NCBI RefSeq assembly: GCF_023074835.1
Contig: NZ_JALLGW010000001.1
Location: forward strand, 2,666,001-2,730,000
Direction: 5' to 3'
From: Halomarina salina
GTDB taxonomy: Archaea; Halobacteriota; Halobacteria; Halobacteriales; Haloarculaceae
Length of the DNA stretch: 64,000 nucleotides
Shown here in pieces: positions 3,446 to 9,418 of the stretch. The translations under genes were made by a program, and so were the position numbers. Every line of letters begins with the position of its first letter. Position 1 is the first letter of the stretch. The notes beneath the pieces were generated by a model. The model saw nothing but the letters and a program-made list of their open reading frames with translations. It did no database searches and was not told the DNA's origin.

Positions 3446-3822
3446 ACCTCCACGTCCGCCCGCGTCGCCTTAACCTCCCGTGGCCGGGCAGGTGTTGCAG
3501 TCAGACCGACGCCGGCAGTGGCCCGGGTCGATTCGCGGACCGCCACTCCCGACCATCGGCGACTCGACTCCCGGCGAGCCGTGGGTGCGCCCGAAGCGCG
3601 CCCGAGGTGAGACCCCCCGTCGCGGAGCGGGTGTCGCGGCAATCCGTGCGCCGACCGCCGTGGCGTGACACAGGTTATTGGGCGGTATGGTTTCAGGTCG
3701 TACAAGGTCGTATTAGGCCGCGCCGTCGTGCGATTCGCCGGAGCGTGTCGGAAATCTGGACACCTGTAACTTTCGCCCCGGGGAGAAGCGTTAATACTGA
3801 CCGGTCGTTGGCGTGGAGTACA
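3446..3822. promoter_or_regulatory. divergent ilvD / leuA promoter region
   Basis: A 377-bp interval without a convincing gene. On the minus strand a GTTAAGG element around 3467-3473 lies about 25 nt before the ilvD ATG. On the plus strand GTTAATACT (3790-3798) lies about 27 nt before the ATG at 3823, the usual distance for leaderless haloarchaeal transcription. Open frames here read as Arg/Pro-rich shadow peptides. Confidence 0.55.
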
Positions 3823-3900
3823 ATGTCACACACGACAGAGGGCACGTCGGAGACCCCGGCGGGTCGAGTTCTTCGACGGTACGCTGAGAACTACTGCTGA
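3823..3900 (+). CDS. out-of-frame leaderless-type short ORF overlapping leuA
   Basis: The ATG at 3823 lies where a leaderless transcript from the TATA-like element at 3790-3798 should begin, yet it opens a frame of only 25 codons that stops at 3898-3900. The leuA frame is shifted by +1 and already reads V-E-F-F-D-G-T-L from 3863. The ORF therefore overlaps leuA by about 36 nt. It may be a regulatory upstream ORF, the first part of a +1 frameshifted LeuA (a CTT-CGA-C slip site occurs at 3871-3877), or the mark of a single extra G in the GGG run at 3861-3863. It is not enriched in leucine codons. Confidence 0.4.
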   Translation: MSHTTEGTSETPAGRVLRRYAENYC

Positions 3901-5056
3901 ATTCGACGACGCACGGATTTTCGACACGACGCTGCGCGACGGCGAGCAGTCGCCACGAACCTCGTTCTCGTACGACGACAAGCGCGACATAGCCGCGCTG
4001 CTGGACGCGATGGGCGTCCACGTCGTCGAGGCGGGGTTCCCGGTGAACTCCGACGCGGAGTTCGCCGCGGTGCGCGACATCGCCGAGAGCACCACCTCGA
4101 CGACCTGCGGGCTGGCCCGCGTGGTCGACGAGGACGTGGAGGCCGCACTCGACGCGAACGTGGACATGGTCCACGTGTTCGCCTCGACCAGCGACGTGCA
4201 ACTGGAGGACTCCATGCACGCGACGCGCGAGGAGGTCGTGGAGCGCTCGGTGGACGCGGTCCAGCGAGTCCGCGACGCGGGGTGCGAGGTGATGTTCTCC
4301 CCGATGGACGCCACCCGGACCGACCCCGACTTCCTGCAGGAGGTCGTCGAAGCGGTCTCGGAGGTCGGCGTCGACTGGATCAACATCCCCGACACCTGCG
4401 GCGTCGCCACGCCCGCTCGGTTCGCGAAACTGGTCGAGCAGGTCGGCGAGTACACCGACGCGCGCATCGACGTCCACACGCACGACGACTTCGGCCTGGC
4501 GAGCGCCAACGCGCTGGCCGGGTTCGAGGCGGGCGCGGCCCAGGCGCAGGTGTCGGTCAACGGCATCGGCGAGCGCGCGGGCAACGCCGCCTTCGAGGAG
4601 GTCGTCATGGCCGTCGAGAGCATCCACGGCGTCGACACCGGTATCGACACGACGCGCATCACGGAGCTGGCGCGGATGGTCGAGGAGAAGAGCGGGGTGC
4701 CCGTCCCGGCGAACAAGCCGGTCGTCGGCGACAACGCGTTCGCCCACGAGTCGGGCATCCACGCCGCGGGCGTCATCGAGAACGCCGCGACGTTCGAACC
4801 CGGCGTGATGACTCCGGAGATGGTCGGCGCGGAACGCGAACTGGTGATGGGCAAACACACCGGCGTCCACTCGGTTCGCGAGCGCCTGCGCGAGGCGGGG
4901 TACGACCCGACCGAGGAGCAGGTACGCGCCGTCACCCGGAAGGTGAAGGACCACGGCGCGGAGAAACAGCGCGTCACCGAGGAGCGGGTCCGCGAGTTCG
5001 CCGACGAGGTCGGCGTCGAACAGGCCGCAGAGCGAGTCACGGAGGGGTCGCGCTGA
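3863..5056 (+). CDS. leuA: 2-isopropylmalate synthase (start unresolved)
   Basis: LeuA condenses acetyl-CoA with 2-ketoisovalerate, the first committed step of leucine synthesis. The frame contains the HMGL-like signature D-T-T-L-R-D-G-E-Q-S-P, then I-D-V-H-T-H-D-D-F-G-L-A and N-G-I-G-E-R-A-G-N, and H-E-S-G-I-H-A, all typical of homocitrate/isopropylmalate synthases. About 400 residues means the short archaeal form with little of the C-terminal regulatory domain. A citramalate-synthase paralogue is possible, but the position in the ilv/leu cluster favours LeuA. The first in-frame ATG (4010) would delete the catalytic signature. Between the upstream stop at 3767 and that point there is no in-frame ATG, GTG or TTG, so the true start is unclear. 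The given start is the first codon clearly belonging to the protein. Confidence 0.85.
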   Translation, partial: VEFFDGTLRTTAEFDDARIFDTTLRDGEQSPRTSFSYDDKRDIAALLDAMGVHVVEAGFPVNSDAEFAAVRDIAESTTSTTCGLARVVDEDVEAALDANVDMVHVFASTSDVQLEDSMHATREEVVERSVDAVQRVRDAGCEVMFSPMDATRTDPDFLQEVVEAVSEVGVDWINIPDTCGVATPARFAKLVEQVGEYTDARIDVHTHDDFGLASANALAGFEAGAAQAQVSVNGIGERAGNAAFEEVVMAVESIHGVDTGIDTTRITELARMVEEKSGVPVPANKPVVGDNAFAHESGIHAAGVIENAATFEPGVMTPEMVGAERELVMGKHTGVHSVRERLREAGYDPTEEQVRAVTRKVKDHGAEKQRVTEERVREFADEVGVEQAAERVTEGSR

Positions 5057-5096
5057 TGTCCTCCAGCGGCAATCGCCCCGAGGGCGAGCGACCGCG

Positions 5097-5119
5097 CTCG
5101 CGCGGACGGTCCGCGCGAG
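5097..5119 (+). terminator. hairpin downstream of leuA
   Basis: A perfect 9-bp GC stem, CTCGCGCGG at 5097-5105 and CCGCGCGAG at 5111-5119, with a 5-nt loop. It lies 40 nt after the leuA stop. No T-run follows, so its role as a terminator is an inference. Confidence 0.4.
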
Positions 5120-5196
5120 TGCCGACCGGGGAACGTCGGTCCTCACGTATCGACGTGACCGGCACGGAGCGCGGCGAGACTTGCCCGCCTGCAAAC

Positions 5197-5204
5197 GGTT
5201 ATGT
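5197..5204 (+). promoter_or_regulatory. TATA element of the ilvB leader promoter
   Basis: GGTTATGT lies about 27-30 nt before the leader ATG at 5228, the expected spacing for a leaderless transcript. No TATA-like sequence occurs in the 30 nt before ilvB itself (5376). The ilvB operon is therefore probably transcribed from here, with an mRNA leader of about 150 nt. Confidence 0.5.
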
Positions 5205-5209
5205 TCGTG

Positions 5210-5223
5210 GGGTCGTTCGACCC
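5210..5223. promoter_or_regulatory. palindromic operator candidate at the ilvB promoter
   Basis: GGGTCG (5210-5215), TT, CGACCC (5218-5223) is a perfect 6+2+6 palindrome between the TATA-like element and the predicted transcription start. A bound repressor would block initiation. The protein that might bind is unknown. Confidence 0.4.
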
Positions 5224-5227
5224 GGTA

Positions 5228-5296
5228 ATGACGCACACTCGGCTCCCGGAGACGACCGCAGTGAGCGTCGCGCTCGCGATTATTGTAGGGGTCTAG
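5228..5296 (+). CDS. putative ilvB leader peptide (22 residues, Ile/Val/Leu-rich)
   Basis: The ATG at 5228 opens a 22-codon frame ending with TAG at 5294-5296. Eight residues are branched-chain: L6, V12, V14, L16, I18, I19, V20 and V22, seven of them in the last eleven codons. The ATG sits at the predicted leaderless transcription start. The last three codons and the stop lie inside the hairpin at 5285-5303, and another hairpin (5261-5277) forms from its middle. This is the design of bacterial ilv/leu attenuator peptides, which sense charged tRNA levels. No such mechanism is established in archaea to my knowledge, so the role is inferred. Confidence 0.55.
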   Translation: MTHTRLPETTAVSVALAIIVGV

Positions 5297-5303
5297 CCCC
5301 TAC
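5261..5303 (+). promoter_or_regulatory. attenuator-like pair of hairpins overlapping the leader ORF
   Basis: Hairpin one is GTGAGCG (5261-5267) with CGCTCGC (5271-5277), loop of 3. Hairpin two is GTAGGGG (5285-5291) with CCCCTAC (5297-5303), loop TCTAG that contains the leader stop codon. The 3' arm of hairpin one can instead pair with GCGAGCG at 5343-5349, so mutually exclusive folds exist. A ribosome stalled on Ile18-Ile19-Val20 would cover the 5' arm of hairpin two. No U-run follows, so the effect could be factor-dependent termination or translational control. Confidence 0.5.
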
Positions 5304-5375
5304 CGCATCCTCTCCTCACCGACCGACCGCACCGCCTTCCGAGCGAGCGACCAGCACGACACCAATCCACGACAG

Positions 5376-7229
5376 ATGAGCGAGCGAACGAGCACCCCGA
5401 CCAACCCCCGGTATCGAGAGCCGACCGAATCGCCCACCGAGGGGGAACAGACCGAGACAGAGGAATCGAACGAGACGACGCCCGAGTCGGCAGACCAGGC
5501 GACCGACGAGGACGAGCAACGACCCGTCACCACGGGCGCGCAGGCGACCATCCGCGCGCTCGAAGCGGCGGGCGTCGAGCACGTCTTCGGCGTGCAGGGC
5601 GGGGCCATCATGCCCGTCTACGACGCGCTGTACGACTCCGACATCAGCCACGTCACGATGGCCCACGAGCAGGGCGCGGCCCACGCCGCCGACGCCTACG
5701 GTCAGGTGACCGGTCGGCCGGGCATCTGCATGGCGACGTCCGGGCCGGGCGCGACGAACCTCGTCACCGGCATCGCGGACGCGAACATGGACTCGGACCC
5801 GGTCGTCGCACTGACGGGCCAGGTCCCGACGAAGTTCGTCGGGAACGACGCGTTCCAGGAGACGGACACCGTCGGCGTCACGCGACCCGTCACGAAGACG
5901 AACTACTTCGCTGACGACCCGAACACCGTCGGTGCGACGGTCAGCGACGCCATCGCGTTCGCGGGCACGGGCCGACCCGGCCCGACGCTCGTCGACCTCC
6001 CGAAGGACGTGACGACGGGGGAGACGAGCGACGAGGCCGCCAGCCCGACGGCACCCCCCACCGACGAGCCGCCGGCCGCGGAGCAGGAGGCCGTCGAGTC
6101 TGCGGCGCGCGCACTCGCGGAGGCCGACCGCCCGCTCATCCTCTCGGGTGGCGGCGTGACGAAGGGCGAGGCGAGCGACGAGGTGCGCGCGTTCGCCACC
6201 GAGTTCGGCATCCCCGTCACGACGACGATGCCCGGCATCGGGACGTTCCCGGAGGACCACGACCTCTCGCTGTCGTGGGCCGGGATGCACGGGACGGGCT
6301 ACGCGAACATGGCCATCAGCCACACCGACTGCCTGCTCGCCATCGGGACGCGCTTCGACGACCGGCTGACGGGCGGTATCGAGACGTTCGCGCCCGACGC
6401 GACGGTCGTCCACGTCGACATCGACCCGGCCGAGATATCGAAGAACGTCCACGCCGACCACCCGCTGATCGGCGACGCGGGCACCGTCGTCGAACAGCTC
6501 CACGACGCGATGCCCGGCGCGTTCTCCGCGACGGAGCGGAGCGCCGACGACTACGAGTCGTGGTGCGAGACGTGCACCGGGTGGAAGGAGACGTACCGCC
6601 AGACGTACGACACGCCCGACGACGAACCGCTCAAACCGCAGTTCGTCGTCGAGGCGACCGACGAACTGACGCCCGACGACACGCTCGTCACGACGGGCGT
6701 CGGCCAGCACCAGATGTGGGCCGCGCAGTACTGGACGTACACCGAGCCGCGGACCTACATCTCCTCGCACGGCCTCGGGACGATGGGCTACGGTCTGCCC
6801 GCCGCCATCGGGGCGAAGGTGGCCGCCCCGGACCGCGAGGTGGTCTGCTTCGACGGCGACGGGAGCTTCCTGATGACGATGCAGGGGCTGTCGGTCGCGG
6901 TGCGCGAGAACCTCGACATCACGGTCGTCGTCCTCAACAACGAGGCCATCGGGATGGTCCGCCAGTGGCAGGACGCGTTCTTCGAGGGGCGCCGGATGGC
7001 CTCGGAGTACCCGTGGGTGCCGGACTTCGCGATGCTCGCGGAGGCGTTCGGCGCGAAGGGGTTCACCCTTCGCGAGTACGAGGAGACGGCCGACACCCTC
7101 CGCGAGGCCATCGAGTACGACGGCCCGAGCGTCGTCGACGCGTACATCGACCCGGCGGAGAACGTCTTCCCCATCGTCCCGAGCGGCGGCGACAACGCTC
7201 GCTTCGCCCTGACGGAGGACCAGCTATGA
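5376..7229 (+). CDS. ilvB: acetolactate synthase, large (catalytic) subunit
   Basis: A TPP enzyme joining two pyruvates to acetolactate, or pyruvate with 2-oxobutyrate, at the entry of valine/leucine and isoleucine synthesis. The catalytic glutamate is E98 in the H-E-Q-G-A-A-H motif. The TPP/Mg site G-D-G-S ... N-N is near residues 494-522, with N-N-E-A-I-G-M following. The 617-residue chain is longer than usual because about 50 Thr/Glu-rich, disordered residues precede the first domain. The stop overlaps the ilvN start (ATGA at 7226-7229), indicating translational coupling. It is the first enzyme gene after the Ile/Val-rich leader. Confidence 0.96.
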   Translation: MSERTSTPTNPRYREPTESPTEGEQTETEESNETTPESADQATDEDEQRPVTTGAQATIRALEAAGVEHVFGVQGGAIMPVYDALYDSDISHVTMAHEQGAAHAADAYGQVTGRPGICMATSGPGATNLVTGIADANMDSDPVVALTGQVPTKFVGNDAFQETDTVGVTRPVTKTNYFADDPNTVGATVSDAIAFAGTGRPGPTLVDLPKDVTTGETSDEAASPTAPPTDEPPAAEQEAVESAARALAEADRPLILSGGGVTKGEASDEVRAFATEFGIPVTTTMPGIGTFPEDHDLSLSWAGMHGTGYANMAISHTDCLLAIGTRFDDRLTGGIETFAPDATVVHVDIDPAEISKNVHADHPLIGDAGTVVEQLHDAMPGAFSATERSADDYESWCETCTGWKETYRQTYDTPDDEPLKPQFVVEATDELTPDDTLVTTGVGQHQMWAAQYWTYTEPRTYISSHGLGTMGYGLPAAIGAKVAAPDREVVCFDGDGSFLMTMQGLSVAVRENLDITVVVLNNEAIGMVRQWQDAFFEGRRMASEYPWVPDFAMLAEAFGAKGFTLREYEETADTLREAIEYDGPSVVDAYIDPAENVFPIVPSGGDNARFALTEDQL

Positions 7230-7972: not shown

Positions 7973-9014
7973 CAACCAGATCTACTACGACGACGACGCA
8001 GCGTACGAGAACATCGAGGAGAAGACCGTCGCGGTCCTCGGCTACGGGAGCCAGGGCCACGCGCACGCGCTCAACCTCGCGGACAGTGCCATCGACGTCG
8101 TCGTCGGCCTGCGCGAGGAGTCCAGTTCCCGCGACGCAGCCCAGGAGGACGGTCTCCGGGTGGCGACGCCGACCGAGGCCGCGAAGGAGGCGGACATCGT
8201 CTCGATGCTCGTCCCCGACACCGTCCAGCCGGACGTGTTCGCGGCCATCGAACCCCACCTGGAGGCGGGGAACACGCTCCAGTTCGCCCACGGGTTCAAC
8301 GTCCACTACGGGCAGATAGAGCCCCCCGAGGGCGTCGACGTGACGATGATCGCCCCGAAGTCGCCGGGCCACCTCGTCCGGCGGAACTTCGAGGCGGGCG
8401 AGGGGACGCCCGGCCTGCTCGCCATCTACCGCGACGAGTCCGGCGAGGCGAAAGACGAGGCGCTCGCGTACGCGCAGGCCATCGGCTGCACTCGCGCCGG
8501 CGTGGTCGAGACCACGTTCCGCGAGGAGACCGAGACGGACCTGTTCGGCGAGCAGGCGGTGCTCTGTGGCGGCGTCACCGAACTCATCAAGGCCGGCTAC
8601 GAGACGCTCGTCGACGCGGGGTACAGCCCCGAAATGGCGTACTTCGAGTGCATGAACGAGATGAAGCTCATCGTCGACCTGCTGTACGAGGGCGGCCTCG
8701 GCGAGATGTGGGACTCGGTGAGCGACACCGCCGAGTACGGCGGCCTGACCCGCGGTGAGGTCGTCGTCGACGACCACGCCCGCGAGCAGATGGAGACCGT
8801 GCTGGAGCAGGTTCAGAACGGCGAGTTCGCCCGCGAGTGGATCAACGAGAACCAGGCCGGACGGCCCGCCTACAAGCAGCGTCGCGGTGCCGAGCAGGCC
8901 CACGACATCGAGGCGGTGGGCGAGGAACTCCGCGGCCTGTTCGCGTGGGGCGAAGCAGCCGGAGAGGAGAGCGAGGACGAGGCGGCCGCGCCGGAAGCGC
9001 CGGCGAACGACTGA
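7965..9014 (+). CDS. ilvC: ketol-acid reductoisomerase
   Basis: IlvC isomerises and reduces acetolactate or acetohydroxybutyrate with NAD(P)H and Mg2+. An N-terminal Rossmann motif, [12 protein letters not shown], starts near residue 26. The knotted C-terminal domain carries the acidic metal ligands in E-T-D-L-F-G-E-Q and [12 protein letters not shown]. Its 349 residues match class I plus a short acidic tail. The ATG lies inside the end of ilvN, so translation is probably coupled. Confidence 0.97.
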
Positions 9015-9049
9015 CGACCAGCGAGACAGACGACCCCGACCCAACTACG

Positions 9050-9418
9050 ATGCCCGAGCACACCACACGAGACGGACGAGAGACGGACCGAGCGGAGAAC
9101 CGACGACCCGACGACGAGCGACCGACGCTCGCGGACTGCGACCACACCAACCCGTTTACCGGCGAGAGCTTCGGTGACGCGATGGTGTACCACCGCGGCC
9201 CAGTCGTCGCCGCCGACGGTGGCGAGGCGGAGGTGACCGAACGAGCGGACGCAGAGAGCGCGGACGCCGAGCAGTCGACCGGCACAGCGGAGGGGGACAC
9301 CGGCCCCGAGGACGAGGAGACGCTCGGCGACATCGACCACACGCCGCCGCGGGACGCCGAGGACGCGAACCGCGTCTACGAACGCGGCGGTGAGACACCG
9401 GACGACGACGACGTATGA
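9050..9418 (+). CDS. uncharacterised acidic protein between ilvC and leuC
   Basis: A 122-residue, highly acidic, low-complexity protein. The one compact segment is [22 protein letters not shown] (about residues 29-50). A second short block, D-I-D-H-T-P-P, lies near residue 90. The single Cys and His residues could bind a metal, but there is no repeated CxxC. It lies in the operon, 35 nt after ilvC and 34 nt before leuC. A role in branched-chain synthesis is possible from position only. Confidence 0.65.

Follow-up and report, generated by a model that had tools for sequence, protein, structure and literature searches.

The ilvB gene of Halomarina salina, which encodes the acetolactate synthase large subunit, is preceded by a short leaderless ORF whose last codons and stop codon are built into a hairpin. 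On the evidence of sequence comparison, the anatomy of this element, its class-wide conservation, its codon bias and its association with both ilvB and the valyl-tRNA synthetase gene (valS) can be regarded as established. We consider it probable that the element is a translated cis-acting leader that exerts attenuation-like, ribosome-mediated control of ilvB according to the charging of Val- and Ile-tRNAs, with premature transcription termination as the output; translation of the leader, ribosome stalling, the direction of control and the termination step are what we infer from this architecture. A wider proposal, which we favour by somewhat better than even chances, is that crown Halobacteria possess an old regulon of ribosome-mediated attenuation in Archaea, in which leaderless peptides read the scarce GUA-decoding Val-tRNA and control the ilvB operon and valS by means of one hairpin without an anti-terminator, and to which the neighbouring leuA may add a +1 frameshift sensor at a Leu codon. 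The window (the whole 64,000-nt stretch of DNA analysed) contains the following features, several gene starts having been assigned by inspection:

5196-5201, + strand: TATA-like box (TTATG region) of the leader promoter, from sequence; aligned loci are AT-rich at -32 to -29
5228-5296, + strand: leaderless leader-peptide ORF, MTHTRLPETTAVSVALAIIVGV*, with the predicted transcript start at 5228 or a few bases off
5279-5287, + strand: proposed sensor codons ATT-ATT-GTA (Ile18, Ile19, Val20); AT[TC]-GTA in 81/81 ilvB loci
5285-5303, + strand: attenuator-like hairpin, GTAGGGG / loop TCTAG including the stop / CCCCTAC, from sequence, comparison and folding
5297-5322, + strand: unstructured, G-poor, pyrimidine-rich tract after the stop, conserved across loci; a putative termination or processing signal
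5376-7229, + strand: ilvB, the proposed target (TIGR00118, 689 bits)

The leader ORF has 22 codons, of which 8 specify Ile, Leu or Val, 7 of them among the final 11, and it closes with ATT ATT GTA GGG GTC TAG (codons 18-22 and the stop). The TTATG sequence lies ~27-32 nt 5′ of the leader ATG and coincides with a class-wide AT peak, and nothing TATA-like occurs within 5300-5375, i.e., between the leader and ilvB. The hairpin at 5285-5303 is a perfect stem of 7 bp with a loop of 5 nt that contains the TAG stop (5294-5296), and there is no long T-run in 5300-5375. Behind ilvB follow ilvC (NF004017) and then leuC/leuD. An earlier sequence-only reading of this DNA had described the ORF and its stop-codon hairpin base-accurately, and its branched-chain residue counts were exact when the window was re-read; its placement of the ATG at the predicted start of transcription and its statement that ilvB has no TATA element of its own both agree with the promoter data above.

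A protein scan yielded 80 further halobacterial ilvB loci, or 81 with the window's own, which share ancestry and are to be counted as non-independent events. The motif AT[TC]GTAGGG[G/C] stands 5′ of ilvB in every one of them, an ATG in the leader frame occurs 19-29 codons earlier in 77/81, and an in-frame stop follows 3-4 codons past the GTA in 75/81. When the loci are aligned on the leader ATG, the AT fraction reaches 0.88-0.99 at -32 to -29, the expected TATA position of a haloarchaeal leaderless transcript. With no ATG selected beforehand, 73 of the 74 loci that have a TATA-like box show an ATG 24-39 nt past it that is in frame with the leader, and 1 and 3 loci show one in the two remaining frames. 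A covariance model derived from 52 ilvB leader sequences, whose E-values are rough owing to a shortened calibration, matches 362 of 391 Halobacteria genomes, usually once per genome. The sequence-only reading had staked its proposal on conservation of the short ORF and hairpin upstream of ilvB in related genera; an ORF with Ile/Val codons and a hairpin is found in all 80 further loci, and 80 of 86 genera match the model. Across a phylum-wide sample the model matches 76 of 81 Halobacteria as against 4 of 312 other genomes, and those 4 matches are marginal, such that no convincing copies were found among these 312 genomes outside the class. In many of the genomes without a match the best weak match lies before ilvB and represents a divergent form of the element; one locus (L319) carries a degenerate copy, and two basal lineages (L322, L323) as well as G124 (L320) have ilvB without a leader. 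As judged from the genomes compared, the phylum-wide distribution and the element-free ilvB genes of the basal lineages mark the leader as a feature of crown Halobacteria.

The conserved parts of the element are the TATA-like box and ATG, the frame, the Ile-Val-Gly end, a stop within or close to the hairpin loop, and the G-poor pyrimidine tract. The rest of the peptide is unconserved, and in comparisons of close pairs the substitutions are spread almost evenly over the codon positions; a functional small protein was rejected for want of clear protein-level constraint over the N-terminal part. The motif is meaningful in its leader context only: a plain search of the 4.46-Mb H. salina genome for GTAGGGG..GCCCC returned 7 sites, fewer than the reversed control, and therefore the short motif alone carries no meaning elsewhere. 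An Rfam search gave no match for the element.

The choice of sensor codon is the most telling feature, and one that the sequence-only reading overlooked. The Val codon at the sensor position is GTA in 81/81 loci and never GTC, GTG or GTT, and GTA makes up 32 of the 3735 Val codons (0.9%) in the ilvB coding sequences of the same loci. The preceding Ile is encoded by ATT in 62/81, compared with 6% ATT among the Ile codons of the coding sequences, and Ile, Leu and Val are enriched over the ~7 codons at the leader end that precede the GTA. The 3′ arm leaves the GTA unpaired in about half of the loci (it ends CCCCTCA, CCCCGCA, etc.), and the GTA is still invariant there, which indicates that the codon itself matters and not the stem alone. 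Reliance on the rarest codon of the amino acid being sensed is a recognized mark of certain bacterial attenuators, and the same rarest Val codon recurs in the valS leaders described below.

Folding of the ilvB leaders in 24-nt windows gives an average of -12.7 kcal/mol at the hairpin and ~0 for the ~25 nt beyond it, where the first 20 nt after the stop contain 3-7% G and are C/U-rich (C>U). Hairpin energy around the stop is -12.4 in the real sequences and -4.7 in shuffled ones, a few divergent elements being anchored one codon off; a count of 4-bp hairpins near the stop did not discriminate between the two (0.55 in shuffles). Loops of 5-6 nt usually go with a 7-bp stem, and ORFs with one extra codon have a loop of 8-9 nt and an additional inner C-G pair; in six Natrialbaceae loci the leader stop lies 3′ of the hairpin. 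Compensatory changes, which the sequence-only reading had suggested looking for, occur in a few lineages as two-sided substitutions that leave pairing intact, namely GTAGGGC/GCCCTAC in L024 and L042 (Actinarchaeum-type), CGGGCC/GGCCCG in L126, GGCCC/GGGCC in L130 (an element before valS) and GGGGCG/CGCCCC in L120. The lack of a U-run, also remarked on earlier, holds across the ilvB loci, in which the longest T-run within 130 nt of the GTA codon is 1-5 nt.

The earlier proposal of a switch between two hairpins fared less well. The first hairpin (5261-5277, with one G.U pair) is present in the window, and its segment 5271-5277 (CGCTCGC) is indeed complementary to 5343-5349 (GCGAGCG). Of the other loci, only three genus relatives (L296-L298) retain the hairpin, at the position of the S-V-A-L codons; in none of these nearest relatives is the alternative partner preserved. 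RNAalifold on four clades recovered the stop-codon hairpin region and no common alternative helix. We dropped the two-state switch because the partner is unconserved (0/3 relatives) and no alternative helix is shared, and on comparison of the codons hairpin 5261-5277 is accounted for by the genus-specific S-V-A-L sequence. As a separate observation, a recurrent GCGACC(A)GC-like stretch lies shortly 5′ of the start of ilvB or valS, at ~5343-5352 in the window and in many ilvB and valS leaders.

A second gene carries leaders of the same kind. In 31 genomes the covariance model has a second site, and 17 of the 20 fetched precede valS, with the signature ..DTPPPTVSGSLHMGHLYG. These leaders end in types such as VFVGAP* (GTT TTC GTA GGG GCN CCN TAG CCCC) or VSVRVGAS* (GTA TCC GTA CGT GTA GGG). 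In another clade, and in the H. salina genome itself, valS stands behind a leaderless ORF of 9-10 codons that ends GTA GTA CGT .. stop; the H. salina peptide is MYRSSVVRV* (L194, G000:C1:210252-211898, - strand). The valS leaders, some of them with tandem or triple GTA codons, come in two forms, a GTAGGGG-hairpin form and a GTA-GTA-CGT form, and share the GTA codons with the ilvB leaders, not the Ile codon. The loci concerned are:

L194, L148, L152-L167, L192-L198, L200, L201, L205, L207, L212: GTA-containing leaderless ORF before valS

Two of the other second sites belong to duplicated ilvB genes, each with its own leader (L149, L151), and valS of one family (f4) has none. For ileS, leuS, tyrS, trpS and trpE (the last within 1.5 kb), ~20-24 genomes each (6 for trpS) yielded no comparable leader with cognate codons, and on this sample generality to other amino acids was rejected. 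One further second site, L150/L316 (~970-1310 after reverse complement), and a similar one in L317 (~960-1320) precede a small gene (..HTPPxEAPxANRVFERG..), which thus occurs by itself behind a leader of the ilvB type in two genomes; it is a probable member of the branched-chain amino-acid regulon because a relative, the window ORF 8837-9418, sits between ilvC and leuC. A further conserved block, TTCGACGGATGTATTGT, lies ~25 nt past the valS leader stop in Natrialbaceae and related loci (L148, L152-L155, L157-L165).

The neighbouring leuA (window ~3862-5056) presents a different peculiarity. In most haloarchaeal loci (L001-L080) it has no in-frame start near the conserved N-terminus, and a leaderless ORF in another frame (MSHTTEGTSETPAGRVLRRYAENYC* here; window 3823-3900) overlaps it. 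The overlap contains a near-invariant site, GG[AG]TCGAGTTCTTCCAGGGCAC (CGA GTT CTT C), and one locus (L012) has an in-frame fusion, MSDTEGTSASPADRVL-DTTLRDGEQ. As read from these sequences, leuA is a candidate for programmed +1 frameshifting at the Leu CTT codon, which would perhaps act as a leucine sensor; an open-licence literature search found no paper on such a frameshift.

We propose that transcription starts at ~5228 and that the leader ORF is translated first, by a leaderless start. With enough Ile-tRNA and GUA-reading Val-tRNA the ribosome would reach the UAG and leave, the GUAGGGG/CCCCUAC hairpin would form next to an exposed pyrimidine-rich stretch, and the majority of transcripts would be terminated or cut ahead of ilvB. 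When Val/Ile charging is low, the ribosome would wait with AUU or GUA in its A site and cover the 5′ arm, the hairpin would be blocked, and RNA polymerase would proceed into ilvB and the genes behind it; valS would be governed by similar leaders that contain GTA codons. A ribosome so placed would itself mask the 5′ arm, and thus no anti-terminator would be needed. From the idea that stalling at Ile18-Ile19-Val20 melts the last hairpin, this scheme retains the codon placement, by which a ribosome at Ile19/Val20 covers the 5′ arm class-wide, and discards the two-hairpin switch. Against the scheme speak the six Natrialbaceae loci with the stop past the hairpin, the missing leaders of leuS and ileS in the genomes sampled and of valS in f4, and the lack of a U-run.

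The same sensor could have a different output, the ribosome governing ilvB translation (by re-initiation or start access) or the stability or cleavage of the leader RNA, which we regard as possible with perhaps one-in-several weight. The lack of a U-run suits this alternative, the hairpin and open tract could serve as a nuclease or initiation signal, and coupling of neighbouring genes is generally known in archaea, as reviewed; however, the distance from the GTA to the conserved GVQGG motif of ilvB ranges over 220-632 nt across loci, a spread unexpected for start-site masking or short-range re-initiation, and RNAalifold on four clades found no conserved pairing of the leader with the ilvB start. 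Because the distance varies so widely and such pairing is lacking, premature transcription termination or cleavage is the favoured output. Lacking a U-run, the site would not be a typical intrinsic terminator of archaea, and FttA/aCPSF1 is the natural candidate factor. Its candidacy is the weaker because FttA prefers U-rich RNA (PMC11616081), and the tract here has C>U. Passages of the same paper put forward, as a hypothesis, a ribosome-exclusion model for archaea and show no link to leader peptides (PMC11616081).

The palindrome might alternatively be the binding site of a regulatory protein, a DNA operator or the target of an RNA-binding regulator, with the ORF incidental. The near-invariant GTAGGGG core would fit such a site, and archaeal branched-chain amino-acid genes are often under Lrp-type proteins. 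Yet a dimeric regulator calls for half sites of fixed spacing and symmetry, and here the spacer is 5, 6 or 8-9 nt, one extra leader codon adding 3 nt; roughly every second locus has lost the TAC of the right half, with no such loss in the left half, the ATG, the frame or the stop, and in one clade the valS leaders have GTA-GTA codons and no palindrome. We rejected an operator palindrome on this variable spacing (5/6/8/9) and asymmetric, variable right arm, and hold any regulator site improbable. About as little credit is due to nascent-peptide arrest, in which the terminal I-V-G-[A/V] would stall the ribosome in response to a metabolite: that ending is nearly universal in ilvB leaders, but what is fixed is the codon and not the residue alone, the valS leaders end V-V-R-x, V-F-V-G-A or R-V-G-A, one ilvB leader ends I-V-R-A-R, and the remaining peptide is without clear protein-level conservation. 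A chance ORF and hairpin in GC-rich intergenic DNA, to which a single-sequence fold z-score of only -2.0 for the originally described interval might lend some colour, is refuted by conservation in so many genera and at a second gene, and its likelihood is negligible.

Attenuation by leader peptides is textbook knowledge for bacteria, where it relies on tight transcription-translation coupling. We found no archaeal example in the literature (open-licence papers only, which is no proof of novelty), and the words attenuation and leader peptide are absent from a review of archaeal coupling; as far as found, the type of control is therefore one known in bacteria and apparently undescribed in archaea, here without two classical features, the alternative helices and the U-run terminator. 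With a class-wide case in haloarchaea amenable to experiment, a single natural switch would allow tests of coupling, factor-dependent termination and leaderless translation in archaea; if true, it would also extend scarce-codon tRNA sensing to a further domain, for both biosynthesis and tRNA-synthetase genes. The T-box riboswitch (Rfam) follows the same gene-set logic, with aminoacyl-tRNA synthetase and biosynthesis genes under one tRNA-charging sensor, whereas the haloarchaeal sensing would go through translation and not direct tRNA binding; the T-box covariance model has no match in window 3500-6500 even at E<=1. A further related group comprises the actinobacterial leader-peptide attenuators and the LEU element (PMC1262725). 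These reportedly have leader peptides with regulatory codons upstream of leu, ilv and trp genes, known from comparative genomics, and are alike in this; the haloarchaeal leader differs in sequence and lineage and gave no Rfam match. Closest in logic, as the sequence-only reading had noted, is bacterial ilv/leu attenuation (E. coli ilvGMEDA, ilvBN and leuABCD; Corynebacterium ilvBNC, PMC11857589). Shared with it are a short leader peptide with branched-chain codons before branched-chain genes, i.e., a short ORF with start, stop and regulatory codons ahead of cognate genes (ilvB, and valS with its GTA codons), the overlap of hairpin and regulatory codons, GTA being the first codon of the 5′ arm, and the proposed sensing by rare codons, with the position of the ribosome deciding whether the hairpin forms. 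In contrast to the bacterial systems, the haloarchaeal element has no mutually exclusive anti-terminator and terminator structures, no conserved anti-terminator and no intrinsic terminator with a U-run; its ORF is leaderless, its single hairpin overlaps the last codons and the stop, and its key codon is Val GTA, with the same codon logic at valS.
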